Below, piece after piece: positions 33,454-43,606 of a stretch of DNA of 64,000 nucleotides. Below the pieces are notes generated by a model that saw only the letters and a program-made list of their open reading frames with translations, was not told where the DNA came from and did no database searches. A program made the position numbers and the translations under genes. Each line of letters opens with the position of its first letter. The first letter of the stretch is position 1. The DNA comes from Gelidibacter maritimus. Lineage in GTDB: Bacteria; Bacteroidota; Bacteroidia; Flavobacteriales; Flavobacteriaceae. The stretch spans positions 124,001 to 188,000 of the forward strand of contig NZ_JACGLT010000002.1 of the NCBI RefSeq assembly GCF_014062315.1, read 5' to 3'.

Positions 33454-34038
33454 TTAGGGTTTTACATGTTGGTATTTTGGCGACGCCTGGACCATTTTAG
33501 TAAGCTGGCCTATGCATAGCGATTTCTTTTTTCGCGCATAAGCATAGGTAACTCCAATACTTTCAGCAACTTCTTGCATTGATTTAATTTTAAAAGATGC
33601 TTTGAGCAAATCTTTACAAGCCTGTCCTAATTTCTGAAACATGTCTTCAAACAGCTCATGTTGCTGTTCATTTAACCTGGTTTCAAAAACAAGTTCTAAA
33701 GCGTCGTCACCATCAGATAGCAATGCTTCATTAATTGTTACCCCTTTTGTATCACTTTTCTTTAAATTATTTAACCATCTCCGTTTACAGAGCAAGAAAA
33801 AATAGGCATCAAACGGACATGTTAACTGAAGATTCTTTTCATGTGCCTGATTATAGATGGTCATGATTGTTTCTTGGATCACATCTTTTGCTTGGTCTTC
33901 ATCACCACTATTTTGCTTGATATAATTGATAACCTTAGGTGCAAATTTCTCATAGATGGATTGAATTACAAAACTGTTGTTTTGCTTTAAACCCTCAACA
34001 TATTTTTGGTCTTGGTGAATTATTTTTTGGCTCATCAA
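33454..34038 (-). CDS. ECF-type RNA polymerase sigma factor
   Basis: 194 residues. Region 2 contains SIYEKFAPKVINYIKQNSGDEDQAKDVIQETIMTIYNQ and the FDAYFFLLCKRRWLNNLKK continuation. Region 4 contains MFQKLGQACKDLLKA...SMQEVAESIGVTYAYARKKKSLCIGQL. This is the sigma-70 extracytoplasmic-function layout. It is divergent from the secreted and CHAT-protease genes and coupled to a membrane TPR protein. A -7 box (TATATTTG complementary to 34072-34079) is upstream. Its target promoters cannot be identified here. Confidence 0.85.
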   Translation of the reverse strand: MMSQKIIHQDQKYVEGLKQNNSFVIQSIYEKFAPKVINYIKQNSGDEDQAKDVIQETIMTIYNQAHEKNLQLTCPFDAYFFLLCKRRWLNNLKKSDTKGVTINEALLSDGDDALELVFETRLNEQQHELFEDMFQKLGQACKDLLKASFKIKSMQEVAESIGVTYAYARKKKSLCIGQLTKMVQASPKYQHVKP

Positions 34039-34173
34039 CCCTCGTATTTTCTACTAAAGTAAAAAAAGTTTCAAATATAGGGGTAACAATTCTTAACGGG
34101 TTTTGATATAAGGTTGAATCAGCAAAGGAAACGACGCTGAAGAGAATATAAATTAATCCAAAAACTCCTCATT

Positions 34174-34617
34174 ATGAAAAATTCAATCTTAATTATCGCA
34201 GCTGCTCTTTTATCATTTTTACAAATGAATGCTTTTAATGATAACGCAAGTCTTAACAATTTTGACAATGACCCTAAGATGACCGTAGATCATCTTATTC
34301 AAATCTACGAATGGAACGTAAAAACAAATCACACTTACTATTCCGGAACCTCAACCAGTGCGGCACATGCCACAAAAATGATTGCGCTTGTCAGTACTGG
34401 AGAAGTTATTCTTGAAAAGACCATTCAAAGCTACTTTATGCTTGAAACAGATGTCAAACAAAATGCCAAAAGAATTTATTTATGGGAAGTGAGCAGCGCC
34501 CATGGTCATGCCCAGGGCTATTCTGCTTCGGAAAATGCGGCGCGTAGAATGATCCATTTAGTTGCACGTGGTGATATTATTACCTCTAAGATCATTAAAA
34601 GCGGCCTTTCAGATTAA
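34174..34617 (+). CDS. secreted protein with duplicated 43-residue domain
   Basis: 147 residues, signal peptide 1-20 (ending MNA). The mature part consists of two ungapped 43-residue repeats, residues 44-86 and 101-143. They share 18 identical positions, including I-Y-x-W-x-V at the start and M-I-x-L-V-x-x-G-(E/D)-(V/I)-I-x-x-K-x-I-x-S at the end. I recognise no known family. It is the first rightward gene opposite the sigma factor, with a lipoprotein next and a possible terminator hairpin between. Confidence 0.75.
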   Translation: MKNSILIIAAALLSFLQMNAFNDNASLNNFDNDPKMTVDHLIQIYEWNVKTNHTYYSGTSTSAAHATKMIALVSTGEVILEKTIQSYFMLETDVKQNAKRIYLWEVSSAHGHAQGYSASENAARRMIHLVARGDIITSKIIKSGLSD

Positions 34618-34627
34618 ATATTCCGTA

Positions 34628-34655
34628 AACAGGGTAACAAAATCGTTGCCCTGTT
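34628..34655 (+). other. hairpin between the secreted and lipoprotein genes
   Basis: 11-bp stem with one G-T pair (34628-34638 and 34645-34655, AACAGGGTAAC/GTTGCCCTGTT). No T-run follows, so it may be an attenuator or processing site. Confidence 0.45.
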
Positions 34656-34690
34656 GATATAAAAATGACAACAATTAAAATCCATTAATT

Positions 34691-35689
34691 ATGAAATATT
34701 TAAAAACAATTTTCGGAAAGATAAGCTTAATAGCTTTAGTATTGACCACATTGACTTTGCTCATGCTAACATTAACAAGTTGCAGTCTTAATGACAATGA
34801 TTATACCGCCCAAATTATGCCGCCCACAGCGCAACAGTTTGCAGGTATCAGAGCCCAAAGTTTAGAAAATATTACGCAACACTTTGAATTTAACGCTGAT
34901 GACGGCTACATCTCTTTAACCACTAACAATGGAGTGGAAGTCTCCATATATGCCAATTGCCTTTCTAAAGACGGAAACCCGGTCACCGGAGCTGTAGCCT
35001 TGGAATACGTTGAGATCTTTGAAAAAGGAAACATGATTACCACAAATAAACCAACCATGGGCCGTATGTCAAACGGTGATAAAGCCATGCTCGTTACGGG
35101 AGGTGAATTCTATTTTGAAGCCACTCAAGATGGTATTGCCTTAGAGATTAATTGTCCAATGATAATTAAAGTACCAACAAGTCTAACAGGTGGCGATGAT
35201 CCTGAAATGATCATGTGGCAAGGCAGTATTGACGATAACGGCGATTTAACCTGGGAAGAAGAAGGTGATGTAGCAGGTGAAGCTGGTTTATTTATTCAAG
35301 GTGGAAATTACCTTGCCTTTGTGCAAAATTTTGGATGGACCAATATTGATCGTTTTTATAGTGATCCGCGTCCCAAAACCACCATTAAAATACAGCCACC
35401 ACTTGGATACACCTATGAAAACAGTGCGGTATATTTATCATATGATGGTGAAGATTCAGGCCTAGCTTTATTGGACACTTTTGACAACGGACTGTTCAGT
35501 GAGCATTACGGACAAATACCTATCGGTTTGGATTGCCATATAATTTTCGTCACCGAAGATAATGGTGTTTGGCGCTATGCAACAAAAGCAGTAACAATTG
35601 CCGAAAATCAGGTCACCGCCTTTAGCATTGAAGAATCTACAGTAGCTACAGAAGCTGAACTCATATCAATAGTAAATAATTTGCCTTAA
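34691..35689 (+). CDS. large lipoprotein, hypothetical
   Basis: 332 residues. The signal ends TLTSC with Cys31, followed by SLNDNDY. The mature protein is rich in beta strands (EFNADDGYISLTTNNGVEVSIYANCL...) and resembles Bacteroidota surface lipoproteins of unknown role. No catalytic motif is visible. It is followed 74 bp later by a PKD/barrel gene, with a strong terminator between them. Confidence 0.7.
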   Translation: MKYLKTIFGKISLIALVLTTLTLLMLTLTSCSLNDNDYTAQIMPPTAQQFAGIRAQSLENITQHFEFNADDGYISLTTNNGVEVSIYANCLSKDGNPVTGAVALEYVEIFEKGNMITTNKPTMGRMSNGDKAMLVTGGEFYFEATQDGIALEINCPMIIKVPTSLTGGDDPEMIMWQGSIDDNGDLTWEEEGDVAGEAGLFIQGGNYLAFVQNFGWTNIDRFYSDPRPKTTIKIQPPLGYTYENSAVYLSYDGEDSGLALLDTFDNGLFSEHYGQIPIGLDCHIIFVTEDNGVWRYATKAVTIAENQVTAFSIEESTVATEAELISIVNNLP

Positions 35690-35701
35690 TTTAACCTGCA
35701 G

Positions 35702-35732
35702 AAAAGCGATGGTTGTCAAGACCATCGCTTTT
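35702..35732 (+). terminator. intrinsic terminator
   Basis: 12-bp stem (35702-35713 and 35721-35732, core AGCGATGGT), 7-nt loop, T-run. It separates the lipoprotein gene from the PKD/barrel gene. Confidence 0.85.
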
Positions 35733-35763
35733 TGTATTTTAGCAAGGAATCAATGCTTTTAAC

Positions 35764-37716
35764 ATGAGAACCTTTTTATCCGTCATTTATTTTTGCTGTT
35801 GTGGTCAATGGCTTTTCGCACAAACAGAAGCCTCGCATGACAGCCTCTCTCGTATAGCAACCATAAAGCATGAAGTCCTTGGCAATACCATTCAATTTAC
35901 GCCACAAACGCCAACATTAGAGCAAATTGCGGGGGCGCCAAAAGCCTTTTACTCTCATTTCTGGGAATTTGGTGACGGCAAGTACAGCAAGGAAGAAAAC
36001 CCAGAACACACTTATAAATCTGCGGGTGATTACGACGTCAAGCTTTGGGCCACCAATAATTATGACACTGGAAAGCCGCCCACCACCCGTCCTAAAAAAA
36101 TTAGCGTCAATAACCCCGATCCATCATACCAGGATGAAGCTTCCATGACCGAGGATTTAATGTTAATCCGCAACAGAGAACCCATGCCCCAAGAAGAAAT
36201 TGTTGTGGTATTAAGCTATAAAAACTACTTAAACTACACCACAAACGGAAAATTATTTATGTTTTATAACGAGCAAAAGTATAAAGCAGATAATTTTGAA
36301 GTGGTAGATATTAGAATGTATCACAATGAAAATCAGGTACACGAAACTGATTTTGTCTATACCAATACCACCCATGATTCAGATAGAGATTTTGTCGCTT
36401 CCGCAGATAGAAATCAGCAGCATTTAAAAGGTCAGGTCCAAGACACCACCATCAAGACCAATTTACAGTTCACACTTGAGGATGCTAAGGCCGAATATAG
36501 AGACTGGGAAACCTTAGAGTTTCAGAATATGGAACCCAACGAAGAACGAAATCTGTTTTTCACCTTAAAAACCCCTCCAGAAATGCTAAAAGATACGAGT
36601 GCCATTATTTCGATACGGGGAGTTTATGTGCCTGATGCCAATTTTGACAACCATAAGGTAAAAGATATGGAAATGGAAATTGTCACTTCCCACGACCCCA
36701 ATAAAATGTCAAGTAACGGCACTTTCATGAACTACCGTACAGTACGTTTTAAGACTTTAAAATACAAAATCAAGTTCCAAAATAATGGCGAAGGGCCAGC
36801 AAGGACCATCCGATTGGAAACCGATATTCCTGAAATATTGGACAAACAATCCATCGAGGTCACAGATATGTATCCCAAGTGCGAAATCTGTCCCGATTAT
36901 GAAGTGCGCTATAGTTGTTTAGACACCGCCTTTACCGATAAGAAAGCTATTTTCACATTTAAAAACATCTACCTCCCTGGCAGTGAACAAAAAAATGTCA
37001 AAGATTACGATTCTACCAAAGGCTTTGTAAAATATAACATCAAGTTTGCCAAGGATTTTCATAAGAAGAGCACCAAAAGTCAAACCGCTATTTATTTTGA
37101 TAAGAACGACCCAATCATCACCAACTACTCAACTACCCGTTTTATTCCCGGACTCTCCATAGGTGCAAAAGTCGGGTACAATGCATATTCAGATTTAAAA
37201 AACTCTGAAAGCTACTTTGTAGGCGCTACAATTTCGCCTTACAAATCTTATCGTTGGTATTGGCAAGTAGAATTGTTAAACAGCTTCCATAACTATGACG
37301 CCAAGACGCATGTTTTTGATGAAATTATCGACATGGCTCAACAGAGATCATTGCAGCGCACCACCACAAACTCACATTTTCAAAATGTCGATTGGGAAAT
37401 TCCAGTACTTGTGCGTTACAATATCAATAATTATTTTGGGATTGGCGCCGGATTACAAGGCATGTTTTCTTTGAGTAAAAAACAGGATCAGGAAATTTTG
37501 ATTGAACAATTTGAAGGTATTACAGATGAATACGTCATGCAGACCCAACTCACAAAAAGTAGTCATAGTAGTGGTTTCAACAATTTCAGAACGGGCTTAT
37601 TACTTGATGTTACTGGCGGTTTTGCTCGGATTGGCCCCAGTCTTGGCGCAAGATATGTGCTGAATTTAAAGGAAGACTTTAATTATCTTCAGTTTTATGC
37701 AATTTGGAAATTTTAA
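35764..37716 (+). CDS. PKD-domain protein with C-terminal barrel
   Basis: 650 residues with signal peptide (about 1-19). Residues 35-115 form a PKD domain (SHFWEFGDGKYSKEENPEHTYKSAGDYDVKLWATN). A long middle region (about 120-460) contains a DUF11/conserved-repeat-like segment (YKIKFQNNGEGPARTIRLETDIP) and four Cys at about 376-391 (CEICPDYEVRYSC). The last about 190 residues are alternating strands that look like an outer-membrane barrel. A surface adhesion, sensing or secretion role is inference. Confidence 0.7.
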   Translation: MRTFLSVIYFCCCGQWLFAQTEASHDSLSRIATIKHEVLGNTIQFTPQTPTLEQIAGAPKAFYSHFWEFGDGKYSKEENPEHTYKSAGDYDVKLWATNNYDTGKPPTTRPKKISVNNPDPSYQDEASMTEDLMLIRNREPMPQEEIVVVLSYKNYLNYTTNGKLFMFYNEQKYKADNFEVVDIRMYHNENQVHETDFVYTNTTHDSDRDFVASADRNQQHLKGQVQDTTIKTNLQFTLEDAKAEYRDWETLEFQNMEPNEERNLFFTLKTPPEMLKDTSAIISIRGVYVPDANFDNHKVKDMEMEIVTSHDPNKMSSNGTFMNYRTVRFKTLKYKIKFQNNGEGPARTIRLETDIPEILDKQSIEVTDMYPKCEICPDYEVRYSCLDTAFTDKKAIFTFKNIYLPGSEQKNVKDYDSTKGFVKYNIKFAKDFHKKSTKSQTAIYFDKNDPIITNYSTTRFIPGLSIGAKVGYNAYSDLKNSESYFVGATISPYKSYRWYWQVELLNSFHNYDAKTHVFDEIIDMAQQRSLQRTTTNSHFQNVDWEIPVLVRYNINNYFGIGAGLQGMFSLSKKQDQEILIEQFEGITDEYVMQTQLTKSSHSSGFNNFRTGLLLDVTGGFARIGPSLGARYVLNLKEDFNYLQFYAIWKF

Positions 37717-37808
37717 GTCAAATTGATATGACTTTTAAGATCATAGTCGGTATTAAAGAACAAATCGCAATTCAAAATGGTCCATTTTAAAACAATACAA
37801 TCTTAAGA

Positions 37809-40391
37809 ATGAAAAGCATCTGCTTCATCATCTTTTTTATTAGCGGAGTTACCTTGTCCCAAAATTTGGAGGAGCAGATTTACAGTGCCACTGAAGCATT
37901 TATTGCCAACAAAAACGACCACTCTTACCAACGTCTAGTACAGCAGGAAAATAATTTTAAGTCTGAGATTAAAAGTAAGGACGAACAACTTGCACTCGTG
38001 TTCTTACAATGCAACAAGGCATTCTACCTCAAAGACACCAATCAGTTAAGAAAAGCCATTTCCACCTACGAAGAGGCTTGGCAACGTTATAGCTACCATG
38101 AGCTTTCAATTATATCAGATTTTGATATCATTGAATATTGCTTAAAACCGCTTGGTAATTTATACACAAAGACAAATAATTATACCAATGCCGAAAACAC
38201 CATTCATCAGTACATTGGATTAGCTGAAAAAAGTAAAAATAAAGCTCAAAATATTGCAGGAATAATCAATTTGTCGGCTTTATACCAAACGCGAGGAATG
38301 CATTCATCAGTATTAAAGATGGTGGCAAAAGGAGAGCGTATTTCGGGAGTTAGCAAATTGCAGGAAGAAAAGTTAACCAATTTAAAAGCCTTTAGTGCTT
38401 TAGCTCTGAAAAGCCAGATTGATAAAGATATCCCTAAAAACCAGGATATGCCAATTATTGAAAAGCCGTTCGCAAAACACAGATTGGCCTACCAGCTGGC
38501 CCTCAAAAACAAGGATCATACTAAGGCATTGGAACATTTCCAACGGTCAAAACAATTCCAGAACAACGAAGAGCTCACCATTAGAGCCATGGCAAAACGG
38601 GATATGGAAGAAGCCCAATTGTATTATGTTTTGAATGACTTTGATAACGCAGATTTATTTTTGGAAAATGCTTTAAGATTATTGCTTCCCAATTATCACA
38701 ATCAAAAACTCCCTGAAGAATCAGATCTTTATGCAGAAAATACCTTAATAGATATTTTTGATCTTAAGGCCCGGTTGCAAACTCAAATTGAGAATGCATT
38801 GGCATATTATGACCTGAGCTTTTATGTTACCAATCTACTCACTTCCAGTCTGACCTCTCAGGAATCAAAGTTGGCCAATTTAAATAGCAATAGAAAGCGC
38901 AGTGAATGGTGTATTGATTTATTGTTTGACGCATATGAAAAAGACCCAAATCCTAAACTTTTTTATCGCGCATTAAATTATGCTGAAAAAGATAAGGCCG
39001 CTGTTTTACATGAAGTGTTTCAGAAAAAGTCATTGCTGTCTAAACATCCCAACGACCGTCTTTTGCTTAAAGAGCAAGAACTTTTGAAAGAACAAGAACG
39101 GCTTACCGATGTTTTGATCAAAACCAAGTTGGGGTATCAGTCCTTACAAAACGAGAGTTTAAACAAAGAGTTACTGGAAGTAAGCATTGCATTAAAATCC
39201 GTAGCTCAAGCCATTAACGATAAATATGGTGCCACGCAAAATCAGACCATTGATTTTGTAAAGCTATCAAACCAATTGGAGCTTGACCAAGCAGCTCTTG
39301 CCGTATATTTTTATGGTAACAAAGCCTTATATAAATTCTCAATTACAGCAGGCACACATCAACTTTCTAAAATTGAATTGAATACGCAGTTTACAAAAGC
39401 CATCACTGATTTCATTCATTTATTTGACCATGCATCTGTCATAAACAATAACGTCAATAGCTTCACTTTTCAAGCCTTTGAGCTTTATAAAATCTTAAAA
39501 CTTGATCAGATAGTCACGCAACCCAATCTTATTATTATTCCCGATGGCCTCTTAAATTTCGTCCCTTTTGAGACTTTGCTTACTGAGTCTACCGAGACTA
39601 ACAATTTTTCAAAGATGCCATTTCTGGTCACTTCCAACAATGTTGTCTACAACTCTAATATTAATTTTTATCTCCAAGATCGAAAAAAGTCGTCCAACCA
39701 TCAGATTCTTGGTGTTTTTCCTGTCTTTGAAAATAGCAATCAAGAGCTTCGCTATTCCGTTGACGAAGCGCATTCCATCCAAGAGATTGACGAAGCTAAG
39801 GTACTAATGCATACTGAAGCTACTAAAACTGAATTTTTAAAAACCGCTGCAGATTTTGGCATTTTACATTTGTCAACCCATGCCACTGGTGGTGATTTTA
39901 TAAATCCAGCCAGTATTGCATTTTACGATCAACCCTTAACAGTCAACGAATTATACAGCTTAGATATCCAGCCCGAGCTTGTCATTTTAAGTGCATGCGA
40001 AACTGGAATTGGGAAATTACAAAAAGGCGAAGGTGCTATGAGCATTGCACGTGGCTTTCAATATGCAGGTGCCAAAAACCTATTATTCTCACTTTGGCAA
40101 ATCAACGATGCATCAACAGCAACATTAATGGATTTGTACTACACATCTTTTGAGAAAACAAAATCGGCTCATTTTGCAAACCGGCAATCAAAACTCGATT
40201 ATTTACAGAACCCATCCATTAGCACTACCAAAAAATCGCCTTACTACTGGGGTGCCTTTGTATATTATGGTAAGATTGAACCTCCCGTTACGCGTGGAAA
40301 CATCATTTATTATTTCTTTGGGATGATTGCAGTGTTATTTGTTTTATTTTTATGGTTTAAAAATCACAAAACAACTAACTTAAATGATTGA
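37809..40391 (+). CDS. TPR-CHAT caspase-like protease with C-terminal membrane anchor
   Basis: 860 residues. A signal peptide (about 1-17) is followed by tetratricopeptide-type helices (about 30-440) and a CHAT domain (about 520-825). The catalytic dyad is visible: His691 in LHLSTHA and Cys730 in LSACETG. A single helix (about 832-850) and a short basic tail end the protein. The protease would lie outside the cytoplasm. CHAT proteins cut specific partner proteins; the TPR part is the probable sensor. It overlaps the next gene by eight bases. Possible partners are the neighbouring sigma-factor/TPR pair and the retropepsin-like protein. Confidence 0.85.
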   Translation: MKSICFIIFFISGVTLSQNLEEQIYSATEAFIANKNDHSYQRLVQQENNFKSEIKSKDEQLALVFLQCNKAFYLKDTNQLRKAISTYEEAWQRYSYHELSIISDFDIIEYCLKPLGNLYTKTNNYTNAENTIHQYIGLAEKSKNKAQNIAGIINLSALYQTRGMHSSVLKMVAKGERISGVSKLQEEKLTNLKAFSALALKSQIDKDIPKNQDMPIIEKPFAKHRLAYQLALKNKDHTKALEHFQRSKQFQNNEELTIRAMAKRDMEEAQLYYVLNDFDNADLFLENALRLLLPNYHNQKLPEESDLYAENTLIDIFDLKARLQTQIENALAYYDLSFYVTNLLTSSLTSQESKLANLNSNRKRSEWCIDLLFDAYEKDPNPKLFYRALNYAEKDKAAVLHEVFQKKSLLSKHPNDRLLLKEQELLKEQERLTDVLIKTKLGYQSLQNESLNKELLEVSIALKSVAQAINDKYGATQNQTIDFVKLSNQLELDQAALAVYFYGNKALYKFSITAGTHQLSKIELNTQFTKAITDFIHLFDHASVINNNVNSFTFQAFELYKILKLDQIVTQPNLIIIPDGLLNFVPFETLLTESTETNNFSKMPFLVTSNNVVYNSNINFYLQDRKKSSNHQILGVFPVFENSNQELRYSVDEAHSIQEIDEAKVLMHTEATKTEFLKTAADFGILHLSTHATGGDFINPASIAFYDQPLTVNELYSLDIQPELVILSACETGIGKLQKGEGAMSIARGFQYAGAKNLLFSLWQINDASTATLMDLYYTSFEKTKSAHFANRQSKLDYLQNPSISTTKKSPYYWGAFVYYGKIEPPVTRGNIIYYFFGMIAVLFVLFLWFKNHKTTNLND

Positions 40392-40839
40392 TTGCAACGA
40401 TCTGTCCCTTCAGGATTTTCTTTTGGAAAAAGGCTATGTTAAAGTCAAATTGAAATTGACCAAAACAAATCATTTTGAAATCAAAGCAACCTTAAACGGA
40501 GTCAAAGGTCTTTTTATTTTAGATACTGGTGCCTCCAATTCCTGTGTAGGTTTTGAAGCTATTGAAACTTTTAAACTTACCGCAAAGGATTCTGAAGTCA
40601 AAGCAGCCGGCGCCGGCGCATCGGATATGTTGACACAGATTTCTAAGAAGAACAAACTCAAAATAGGAAAGTGGAAAAAAGACAAAGTAGCTCTGGTACT
40701 TTTCAATTTGACCCACGTCAATACAGCACTTCTAAACTATAATTCAAAGCCTGTAGATGGCATTATAGGTGCCGATATTTTGAAGAAAGCAAAAGCTATT
40801 ATTGACTATAACAAACGCTATGTGTATTTAAAACTGTAA
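40384..40839 (+). CDS. retropepsin-like aspartyl protease family protein
   Basis: 151 residues, no signal peptide. A flap-and-floor pattern typical of the retropepsin-like fold is seen: FILDTGAS with Asp47, then VDGIIGADILKKAKAIIDY. One such domain has to dimerise to be active. It overlaps the CHAT gene by eight bases (ATGATTGA), so the two are translationally coupled and likely work together. A protease pair, or a binding fold without cleavage activity, are both possible. Confidence 0.8.
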   Translation: MIDCNDLSLQDFLLEKGYVKVKLKLTKTNHFEIKATLNGVKGLFILDTGASNSCVGFEAIETFKLTAKDSEVKAAGAGASDMLTQISKKNKLKIGKWKKDKVALVLFNLTHVNTALLNYNSKPVDGIIGADILKKAKAIIDYNKRYVYLKL

Positions 40840-40905
40840 TAATTTTCCTTCGTTTTCAATATATTAGAGTTATATTTAAGTCCCTATACTTATTATTAAT
40901 AGCAC

Positions 40906-41541
40906 ATGGCATCCTCTATCATAATAGCAGACGATCATCCTCTTATCCTTAAAGGTCTGACTGATTTTTTAATTGAAAAGGAATATAATCTTATCGGAAG
41001 CGCCGTAAATGGCAGGGACGCCTTTGAAATGATCAAATCCAAGCAGCCAAAAATTGCCATCTTAGATATTCAGATGCCATTTATGACCGGTTTGGAAATT
41101 GCAGAAAAATGCAAGGCATTAGAACTTCCCACCAAAATCATTTTGATTACATTTGAAAAGGATGAACAGATTTATAATCAAGCAAAAGCACTGGAGATTT
41201 ATGGCTATGTACTTAAAGAGTTTGCGTTGGTGGAAATTGAAAATTGTATTGCAGCGGTGTTAGATGGAAAATCCTATTTCAGTCCTGAGCTCATTGAATA
41301 TTTAGAAATAGTTGAGCCTCCAAAAGAACTTGAATTACTTACTCCCACCGAAATTGAAGTATTGAGACTTATTGCTTTAAATAAAACGGCAAAAGAAATC
41401 GGCAGCATTCTTTTTATCTCAAGCAGAACCGTCGAAAAACACAAGAGCCATATTATTAGAAAATTGGATTTAGAGTCCAAAGTTGGCAGTTTAGCCCTTT
41501 TCGCTAAGGAAAACGAGGAGTTTCTTGGTAAAAATACGTAG
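40906..41541 (+). CDS. NarL/LuxR-type response regulator
   Basis: 211 residues. The receiver domain has acidic pair Asp9-Asp10, phosphoacceptor Asp54 (AILDIQMPF) and Lys104. The LuxR-type HTH is at about 143-195 (LTPTEIEVLRLIALNKTAKEIG...SSRTVEKHKSHIIRKL). No cognate histidine kinase is adjacent. The gene is 66 bp after the retropepsin-like gene. Its stop codon lies inside the first palindrome of the repeated promoter modules, which are candidate target sites. Confidence 0.9.
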   Translation: MASSIIIADDHPLILKGLTDFLIEKEYNLIGSAVNGRDAFEMIKSKQPKIAILDIQMPFMTGLEIAEKCKALELPTKIILITFEKDEQIYNQAKALEIYGYVLKEFALVEIENCIAAVLDGKSYFSPELIEYLEIVEPPKELELLTPTEIEVLRLIALNKTAKEIGSILFISSRTVEKHKSHIIRKLDLESKVGSLALFAKENEEFLGKNT

Positions 41542-41583
41542 TTCTACGTATTGTTTAGCATTATTATAATCACGACATTTACA
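41533..41583 (+). promoter_or_regulatory. palindrome-promoter module 1
   Basis: Perfect palindrome: AATACGTAG (41533-41541), TT, CTACGTATT (41544-41552). Its end overlaps a TTG (41551-41553). Twenty nt later comes GACATTTACA (41574-41583), a degenerate -7 box (six of eight matches to TAnnTTTG). The palindrome centre is about 44 bp before the expected transcript start, fitting activation by a DNA-bound dimer. It is followed by ncRNA candidate 1. Confidence 0.7.
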
Positions 41584-41587
41584 GAGC

Positions 41588-41653
41588 TATTAATCAATTT
41601 CTATTTAGGGGAATCAAAAAGCTCTGGATTGTAACTGATCCAGAGCTTTTTTA
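41588..41653 (+). ncRNA. small RNA candidate 1
   Basis: Predicted start about 41588, end at the T-run of a strong hairpin (41616-41629 with 41638-41651). No ORF is present. The single-stranded part contains TTAGGGGAATCA, shared with candidate 2 (TTAGGGGAATTA), and CTATTAAT, shared as well. It could also be the processed 3' end of the response-regulator mRNA, because no terminator lies between. Confidence 0.6.
41616..41651 (+). terminator. terminator of small RNA 1
   Basis: 14-bp perfect stem (core GCTCTGGAT), 8-nt loop, T6 run. Confidence 0.8.
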
Positions 41654-41855
41654 TAAACCGATTGGCATGAAAACATGATTAGTATCTTTTCGATCCTTTT
41701 TTTGCTCCCATTTTAAGTGCATCTTCTACTATCTATTTTTCACTTAAAGTTAAGTGATTGTCTAAACAGCGTTTATATTTATTAGGATAAAAGTAGATGT
41801 ACTTCATCGTCATTTAGTAAGAATACTCTAAGAAAAAGTCAAAATCGATCAAAAT

Positions 41856-41905
41856 ATACGTAGAACTACGTATTGTTTGGTGTTATTAAATAGTCGAAAT
41901 TTACA
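41856..41905 (+). promoter_or_regulatory. palindrome-promoter module 2
   Basis: ATACGTAG (41856-41863), AA, CTACGTAT (41866-41873), TTG at 41873-41875, 20 nt, then GAAATTTACA (41896-41905). Spacing from palindrome centre to -7 box is identical to modules 1 and 3. Confidence 0.7.
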
Positions 41906-41909
41906 TTGC

Positions 41910-41974
41910 TATTAATTCTTAGGGGAATTATTTATAAGGCTCTGGATCTTTGCTGATTCAGGGCTTTATTTTTT
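41910..41974 (+). ncRNA. small RNA candidate 2
   Basis: Starts about 41910 and ends in a hairpin (41935-41948 with 41955-41968, three G-U pairs) plus T-run. Its 5' half repeats the CTATTAATTC...TTAGGGGAAT element of candidate 1, and the hairpin begins with the same GCTCTGGAT. The two are clearly diverged copies. No ORF. Confidence 0.6.
41935..41968 (+). terminator. terminator of small RNA 2
   Basis: 14-bp stem with G-U pairs (core GGCTCTGGATC), 6-nt loop, followed by T6. Confidence 0.7.
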
Positions 41975-41991
41975 AAGCACTATCGTTCAAA

Positions 41992-42042
41992 AATACGTAG
42001 AACTACGTATTGTTTAACGTCCGTTTAATGCCGAATTTTACA
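41992..42042 (+). promoter_or_regulatory. palindrome-promoter module 3
   Basis: AATACGTAG (41992-42000), AA, CTACGTATT (42003-42011), TTG at 42010-42012, 20 nt, GAATTTTACA (42033-42042). Same geometry as modules 1 and 2. It leads into the 36-residue membrane-peptide gene rather than straight into a terminator. Confidence 0.65.
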
Positions 42043-42120
42043 TTTCAATAAGCTTATTGATTTCTGTGAGGGTACACCTCTAAATAAGTTAATAGGAAGA
42101 ACCTAAATTTCTTAAAACCT

Positions 42121-42231
42121 ATGAAAATCATGAAAAATAATTTCGAAAGTGGCAATCGTTTACTAATCATAGGGCTTATAACGAGTGCTATATTGATAAT
42201 AACTGCAAATATTCTGGTTAATTTTTGTTGA
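42121..42231 (+). CDS. 36-residue single-helix membrane peptide
   Basis: Starts MKIMKNNFESGNR, then one hydrophobic helix (LLIIGLITSAILIITANILV), ends in Cys before TGA. It lies about 70 nt downstream of the expected start of promoter module 3 and ends 50 bp before a terminator. Short, so coding status rests on its position in the module and its clean hydrophobic profile. The fourth codon is also ATG, an alternative start. Confidence 0.45.
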   Translation: MKIMKNNFESGNRLLIIGLITSAILIITANILVNFC

Positions 42232-42282
42232 ATTTGAGTTATCCTTCTTAAACATTCAAATCTGTTTGATATAGGACAATAA

Positions 42283-42315
42283 AAAAGGGCACCTTAATAT
42301 TTAAGTTGCCCTTTT
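42283..42315. terminator. bidirectional terminator
   Basis: 15-bp stem with one mismatch (42283-42297 and 42301-42315, core AAAGGGCA), loop TAT, A/T-runs on both sides. It lies between the small-peptide gene and convergent sucB. Confidence 0.75.
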
Positions 42316-42337
42316 GTATTTTATTGTCTTTTTTAAT

Positions 42338-43606
42338 TTACAATTCCAATGCTCTCTTAACATCATTATCCATTAAGAGCTCTGTAGGATTTTCAAGCGC
42401 CTCTTTGATGGCCACTAAGAATCCAACACTTTCTTTTCCGTCAATAATTCTATGGTCATAAGACACCGCCAAATACATGATTGGTCTAATCTCGACGTGC
42501 CCATCTATTGCTACAGGACGTTCCACAATATTGTGCATTCCTAAAATTGCACTTTGTGGCGGGTTGATAATTGGTGTGGACATCATGCTGCCAAAAACAC
42601 CACCGTTAGAGATTGTAAAGGTACCGCCAGTCATCTCATCTACCGTCAGTTCTCCGTCTCGTGCTCTGATGGCCAAACGTTTTACTTCGTTCTCTACGCC
42701 TCTGAAGGATAGGTTTTCAGCATTTCTGATTACTGGAACCATCAGTCCTCGTGGACCTGAAACCGCAATACTAATATCACAAAAATCATAGCTCACCATT
42801 TCCTGACCATCAATCATAGAGTTAACTGCCGGATATTCTTTTAAGGCTCTAACAGCAGCTAAGGTAAAGAAACTCATAAAACCTAAGCCAACACCATGTT
42901 TGCTTTTGAAAGTTTCCTTATACTCTTCACGTAATTTGAAAATTGCGGTCATATCCACCTCATTAAAGGTGGTTAACATGGCTGTTTCATTTTTGGAAGC
43001 TACCAAACGCTCTGCAACTTTACGACGCAACATAGACAGCCTTGAACGTGAAACACCACGATTCCCTCCTGTTGGCGTACCCATTGAAGGGGTTGCCTTT
43101 ACAGCATCATCCTTGGTGATACGACCATCTTTACCAGTGCCTCGAACATCTGAAGCCGACATGTTTTTCTCTGCCAAAACCTTTTTGGCTGCCGGACTCG
43201 CAGCTCCTGAAGCATACGTTTTTTGATCAGGGTTTGGTGCTTTTTCGGAATCCTTCTTATTCGGAGTTTCCTTATGTTCCTTGGAAAGTTCTTTTTCAAC
43301 ATCTTTGTCACCAGAACCCTCATCACCTGTACTCTCAGGCTTAGCATCTGAATCACCTGAAGGTTTTTCGGCAGCGGTGTCAATTAAGCACACCACAGCA
43401 CCCACGGCAACCGCATCTCCTACTTCTGCCTTCAAGGTAATCGTACCACTAGCTTCTGCTGGAAGCTCCAAGGTAGCTTTGTCGCTATCTACTTCTGCAA
43501 TGGCTTGGTCTTTTTCTACATAGTCACCATCAGCGACTAACCATTCTGCAATTTCTACTTCTGTAATGGATTCTCCTGGTGAAGGAACTTTCATTTCTAA
43601 AATCAT
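42338..43606 (-). CDS. sucB: 2-oxoglutarate dehydrogenase E2 (dihydrolipoamide succinyltransferase)
   Basis: 422-residue E2 of the TCA-cycle 2-oxoglutarate dehydrogenase complex. The lipoyl domain holds Lys43 in [10 protein letters not shown] Glu/Lys/Ser-rich linker (about 85-135) is followed by the peripheral subunit-binding domain ([32 protein letters not shown]) and the catalytic domain with DHRIIDG near the end. It follows sucA by 29 bp on the same strand. Confidence 0.95.

Follow-up and report, generated by a model that had tools for sequence, protein, structure and literature searches.

A response regulator (RR) gene of the NarL/LuxR type (40906–41541, + strand; 211 amino acids) lies in the 64-kb window, the whole stretch of DNA analyzed here. 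Its product carries a receiver domain (Pfam Response_reg, PF00072, 5e-22) and a C-terminal LuxR/GerE helix-turn-helix (PF00196, 1e-14), and residues D9, D10, D54 and K104, which we take to be the phosphoacceptor Asp, the acidic pair and the Lys, are invariant among 20 aligned orthologues. A gene for a retropepsin-like (clan AA) aspartyl protease precedes it (40384–40839, + strand; Asp_protease_2, E 8e-11), and three tandem palindrome-plus-promoter modules follow directly 3′ of it. Each module opens with the palindrome TACGTAGnnCTACGTA; a TTG, 20 nt of spacer and a GAnnTTTACA box follow, and transcription is predicted to start 43.5 bp from the centre of the palindrome. As the original prediction had stated, every module has its box 31.5 bp from the palindrome centre and a spacer of 20 nt, and the RR stop codon falls within palindrome 1 (41533–41552; 16-mer 41535–41550). 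The TTG touches the right palindrome edge in each. This palindrome, a predicted RR site, and palindrome 3 (41992–42011; 16-mer 41994–42009) both have exact arms. Three copies of the arms had also been claimed; three palindromes are indeed present, and the one correction, a trivial one, is that palindrome 2 (41855–41874; 16-mer 41857–41872) begins its left arm with T in place of A. An exact match to the full arms, AATACGTAG..CTACGTATT, occurs twice in the window, versus 0 in 100 shuffles.

The promoters, all on the + strand, extend from the TTG through the spacer to GACATTTACA in module 1 (41551–41583), GAAATTTACA in module 2 (41873–41905) and GAATTTTACA in module 3 (42010–42042). For modules 1 and 2 the start is predicted at the G of GCTATTAAT; in module 3 the base at this position is a T, which makes that start less sure. 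A sigma-70 promoter scan was uninformative (6 found versus 4.4 expected). Downstream of promoters 1 and 2 lie a predicted class B small RNA (RNA 1, 41586–41654, + strand, from predicted start to terminator; fold z −4.9) and a class A small RNA (RNA 2, 41908–41974, + strand, with a UUAGG(G)-loop hairpin and a terminator; fold z −5.3). Module 3 precedes a 36-codon open reading frame (ORF) with one hydrophobic span (42121–42231, + strand), and its predicted mRNA (42045–42320, + strand) starts according to the box register and ends at an inverted repeat (42278–42320). The feature as first delimited ended at 42042 and excluded this product. The proposal of three short transcripts is refined accordingly: modules 1 and 2 end in a hairpin-plus-T stretch some ~66 nt beyond their predicted starts, whereas module 3 appears to be the promoter of a membrane-protein mRNA.

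A looser palindrome-plus-box pattern gave three exact matches in the genome of the window, all at this locus, and one further one-mismatch site elsewhere; the reversed-pattern control also gave one. Because the exact pattern is confined to the locus, the RR looks dedicated, and any wider effect would come from the small RNAs. By eye, further palindrome copies (L006–L011) were seen in the same genome within repeated sequence TACGTATAGGAAAG... Ahead of the retropepsin gene, the window contains ECF sigma-like, lipoprotein-like, PKD/DUF7849 and TPR-CHAT genes (33454–40391). This cassette looks inserted, as such genes occur in 7/80 related loci by the count of CHAT, and for the same reason the CHAT protease was rejected as a component of the system.

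Conservation of the modules among relatives

A scan by RR alignment recovered 534 relatives. The analysis used the 80 best of them as named loci, which come from Gelidibacter, Psychroserpens, Winogradskyella, Formosa, Xanthomarina, Mangrovimonas and others, metagenome-assembled genomes included. Absence or lack of conservation of the palindrome beside orthologous regulators would have spoken against the original prediction, and these loci show neither. Between −30 and +1200 from the RR stop codon, an exact TACGTN6ACGTA was found in 80/80 of these closest loci, with one copy in 2, two in 50, three in 26 and four in 2, so that 78/80 have two or more. In the 1.2 kb upstream of the RR, no exact copy was found in any of the 80 loci, and a one-mismatch copy was found in one. 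The gene neighborhood is similarly stable: among the best 80 of the 534 relatives, the retropepsin-like gene lies directly upstream of the RR in all 80, odhB downstream in 78 and TatD upstream in 73. Sequence comparison establishes both the anatomy of the module and its conservation, which extends to many genera of the family.

Searching with TACGTAGNNCTACGTANTGTTT (up to two mismatches) recovered matches in 17/59 related genomes, including all nine of the window's genus; these mostly, not exclusively, adjoin the RR, and the reversed control gave three matches in total. In more distant relatives the site is degenerate, with TACGTG forms in G034 and G020. Two observations in this range count against the preferred explanation. 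In G028, whose RR is 45% identical, no such palindrome was present in the stretch read. In G034 a TPR-histidine kinase gene lies between the retropepsin and RR genes (a 692-aa ORF occupies this position in G020), and no relative of this kinase was found in the flanks of the best 80 loci. Among lower-scoring paralogous RRs, the TACGTAGNNCTACGTANTGTTT search found adjacent palindromes in G035 and G021 only. In these two genomes, inspection by eye showed TACGTAGGTCTACGTA-type palindromes just downstream of ~40% identical paralogous RRs (L101, G035:C4; L103, G021:C1), and that of L101 precedes a hairpin-T stretch and then a gene with a signal-peptide-like start.

The promoter register was assessed in 191 modules, comprising 188 from relatives and the three of the window, all picked by palindrome alone. 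In a gapless alignment, the TTT of the box lies at the same distance from the palindrome in 189/191, extending to the relatives the fixed spacing first noted in the window. Within the box, the A is present in 99% and the G in 82%, and the TTG is complete in 136/191. The position of the box is that of the sigma-A box TAnnTTTG described for Flavobacterium psychrophilum at −12 to −5 (PMC9723704), and just 2/191 modules carry this full consensus.

Other palindromes were seen in related genomes. At L240 (G000:C5:32314), L241, L242 and L248, in four genomes, a related palindrome TACGACGTTTGACGTA and a box lie between a long ORF and another RR gene (neighbor genes Pfam-checked for L240 only); the version in G013 is TACGTAGTTTGACGTA. 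In G031:C2, near-identical palindrome promoters TACGTAAGGTTACGTATAGTACA precede two genes (L243 and L244) whose products, judged by eye, start hydrophobic, and these genes are possible extra targets in that genome.

Palindrome type and the DNA-binding domain of the regulator

The inner bases of the palindromes define two main types among 81 arrays (the 80 loci and the window), AGnnCT in 46 and AAnnTT in 29; the six arrays of other types were excluded from coupling tests. Palindromes within an array are of the same type in 129/143 pairs, compared to 47% between arrays. The nine RR columns with the highest mutual information with type all fall at residues 163–204, in the DNA-binding part, and the tenth is residue 71. 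When type was predicted from the nearest neighbor, the binding domain was correct in 75/75 arrays of the two main types, compared to 62/75 for the receiver, 61/75 for the retropepsin, 61/75 for TatD (two misses being rows with no usable TatD) and 46/75 for odhB. The binding domain remained correct in 72/75 when only rows with receivers less than 72% identical were used, while the receiver fell to 24/75 when only rows with binding domains less than 65% identical were used.

On a tree of the neighbors and the receiver, type changes 13 times, with eight changes forced by well-supported branches. In eight independent pairs, a binding-domain motif follows type in seven, shows no difference in one and is opposite in none (p 0.016), and AAAGTT against TGV is concordant in 8/9 with none opposite (p 0.008); these p values are nominal, as the motifs were chosen after inspection of the data. 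Recombination could in principle move the binding domain and the first palindrome as a unit. When just the farthest palindrome was considered, at least 142 bp from the RR stop codon in 71 arrays, the binding domain predicted type in 68/71 (the misses include L180), the receiver in 57 and the body of that module in 55. One lineage, L186, looks like a natural domain swap from its sequence. Its receiver is 126/135 identical to that of L165, while its binding domain is just 37/69 identical to that of L165 and 50/69 identical to that of the distant L149; its last module is 89% identical to that of L165, but each of its three palindromes belongs to the other type. This pattern speaks against the simple transfer of domain and palindromes in a single DNA block and, together with the farthest-palindrome result, against recombination as the whole cause.

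Some palindromes depart from this coupling and count against the preferred explanation: 14/143 within-locus pairs differ in type, and L180 has one palindrome of each type, contrary to its binding domain. Overall, the tracking of palindrome type by the binding domain is the best computational evidence that the RR binds these sites directly. The repeated, coupled changes of domain and palindrome also make the specificity of a NarL-type domain directly testable.

Predicted small RNAs and small membrane protein

Among modules other than the last of an array, the 120 nt after the predicted start contain a terminator-like hairpin in 100/110, and 70 of these hairpins end at 54–72 nt. From 102 distinct RNAs of 54–72 nt, 72 were sorted by eye and aligned in two classes, and the 30 fitting neither class well were excluded from the alignments. 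Class A combines an AAUUC-UUAGGG(A)-GAAUU hairpin with a GCUCU terminator, and class B combines an invariant GCUAUUAAUCA start with a terminator. In class A (38 sequences), 97.4% of cells are paired and 14/19 pairs show two-sided change; in class B (34 sequences), 96.6% of cells are paired and 9/12 pairs show two-sided change. Every covariation measure exceeds all 500 shuffles in both classes, pointing to conserved RNA structures. The covariation lies mainly in the terminator, with two two-sided-change pairs in the class A 5′ hairpin. RNA 1 and RNA 2 match their models with E values of 1.7e-9 and 6e-10, each RNA being part of its model's alignment.

Rfam returned no family at the gathering threshold in 40800–42400 of the window, the best match being rli40 (E 1.6e-4; 27.8 bits against a required 100; 63 nt aligned to a model of 263 positions); in the 10 of 80 related loci that were scanned, it returned tRNAs only. 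In the window's own genome, the class models scored below E 0.001 only at RNA 1 and RNA 2, which the models contain, with weak matches above 0.003 elsewhere and on the other strand. Across the family, a class A RNA was found in 64/249 sampled genomes, and 23/26 class A loci from this search have the RR within the fetched 1.5 kb, some of the 26 coinciding with loci in the model. At L238 (G013:C3:361500-372500), two near-identical genes for 221-aa regulator-like proteins each precede class A RNAs, which here lie behind another palindrome, TTACGGnnnnCCGTAA; the one product tested had no Pfam match at 1e-3. In at least one genome, class A RNA thus seems to be linked to a different type of regulator as well. 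A strict TTACGGnnnnCCGTAA-type pattern was found in 0/59 genomes, including G013, where the modules exist, and was evidently too strict to be informative.

The RNA 5′ end GCUAUUAAUCAA was considered as a target-pairing seed and dropped. It recurs elsewhere in these genomes, and the 12-mer GCTATTAATCAA occurs 99 times in nine genomes of the genus versus once for the reversed control (for example, at G000:C56:142996). TTTR stands just upstream at 17/30 places inspected, and the 12-mer may mark start sites generally in this group. Its recurrence is therefore no evidence of a pairing seed.

A single-span ORF is present in the last module of 80/81 arrays, the miss being L170, and encodes 33–38 amino acids in 73/80. 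The ratio pN/pS is 0.20 pooled over 16 close pairs (median 0.49 over 1587 pairs), which indicates that the ORF is coding and that the small membrane protein is under purifying selection. Three representative peptides had no Pfam or NCBIfam match over the cut-off. In module 1 of the window, the membrane-protein ORF of several relatives appears by eye to have decayed (41655–41760).

Readings of the locus and related systems

The original interpretation is strongly supported by these comparisons. We consider it likely that a dedicated NarL-type RR drives two tandem small RNAs and a 36-aa membrane protein. The phosphorylated RR would bind as a dimer to the 16–20-bp palindrome, whose centre lies 43.5 bp ahead of the start in every module. 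From this site, which overlaps the −33 region, it would activate three sigma-A-type promoters whose −7 box is off consensus. Modules 1 and 2 would yield ~66-nt terminated small RNAs, one of each class, and module 3 the mRNA of the single-span protein. The RNAs would probably act in trans, on mRNAs or an RNA-binding protein. The 36-aa protein would probably act at the membrane, for example in feedback on an unlinked sensor kinase, this feedback being a guess by analogy. We infer that the RR binds directly, that it activates and does not repress, that the modules are transcribed, and what the RNAs and the protein do downstream.

Leader attenuation is the strongest rival. Here the terminated RNAs would be attenuator leaders and not free regulators: an RR-driven promoter would be followed by a conditional terminator before the membrane-protein ORF, and ORF-less modules would be decayed copies. 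A hairpin-T stretch does lie between promoter and ORF in 54/80 last modules, in 33 of them at 54–72 nt after the start, a peptide ORF is still present in 14/110 non-last modules, and module 1 of the window has no intact ORF. However, 26/80 ORFs have no such hairpin, that of the window's module 3 included. A class A module with no ORF also recurs in seven of nine other Gelidibacter arrays, with 88–90 nt from start to next palindrome (86 in the window), and is almost constant in sequence nonetheless. Attenuation is thus a reading to be taken seriously, if a doubtful one.

That the RR binds the palindromes yet represses, or acts unphosphorylated, is unlikely. In its favor, the right palindrome edge overlaps the TTG (−33) element, but we infer from the rarity of full consensus boxes (2/191) that these promoters need an activator. 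Highly improbable is a type I toxin-antitoxin locus, with the membrane peptide as toxin and the small RNAs blocking its mRNA: a small hydrophobic peptide adjoins small RNAs, and RNA 2 of the window is among six RNAs with z below −2 against their own peptide mRNA start, but the RNAs lie on the same strand as this mRNA and duplex energies are at chance across 70 RNAs (mean z 0.06, s.d. 1.08), and antisense pairing of RNA and peptide mRNA was rejected. That the palindromes serve another protein, DNA structure or a mobile-element end, with RR adjacency incidental, is very unlikely given the fixed box distance and the coupling of type to binding domain, even if some copies in the window's genome sit, by eye, in a repeat unrelated to these promoters.

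In the preferred reading, an RR drives several small RNAs, a wiring with a known parallel. GacA of Pseudomonas is a NarL-family RR, and Rsm RNAs titrate CsrA/RsmA. A palindromic upstream element, described as a potential GacA site, precedes rsmX, rsmY and rsmZ (PMC2375449), and rsmX-2 is reported to have arisen by duplication (PMC7911923); the likeness to the present locus is one of sequence. A search for CsrA/RsmA (PF02599) that was positive in 3/14 control genomes gave no match over the cut-off of 27 in 39 genomes, with one weak match in G050 (20.1 bits), and CsrA dependence was rejected. The locus further differs in that its RNA modules immediately follow the RR gene, and in that a small membrane protein would be driven alongside the RNAs. 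The locus resembles the GacA/Rsm wiring but, as no CsrA was found, is not classed as a member. It is a tentative suggestion that Flavobacteriaceae have a CsrA-free counterpart of Gac/Rsm, with a dedicated RR, trans-acting RNAs with an exposed UUAGGG-type loop that perhaps titrate an RNA-binding protein, and feedback by the co-driven 36-aa membrane protein. Under the same suggestion, the RR of the window's species would control little beyond a single locus of tandem small RNAs.

Among the literature matches listed for the arrangement, the motif or the genus, no title or abstract opening describes such a locus. Little is known of the regulatory circuits of Bacteroidota, and the locus offers an RR together with a precisely defined candidate site, TACGTAGnnCTACGTA at −43.5. 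It also unites, in one short conserved stretch, two covarying RNA classes that reach no Rfam threshold and a conserved small membrane protein whose tested representatives lack a Pfam or NCBIfam match. The RNAs can be likened to Rfp18 of F. psychrophilum, described as a conserved flavobacterial small RNA (PMC9723704); compared by description, Rfp18 has a third stem-loop, whereas the consensus of the present RNAs shows one or two hairpins. The 36-aa protein, in turn, may be analogous to small membrane proteins controlled by two-component systems, namely MgrB, described as a negative feedback regulator under PhoPQ (PMC10746255), and the 30-aa KdpF under KdpDE (PMC3618439).
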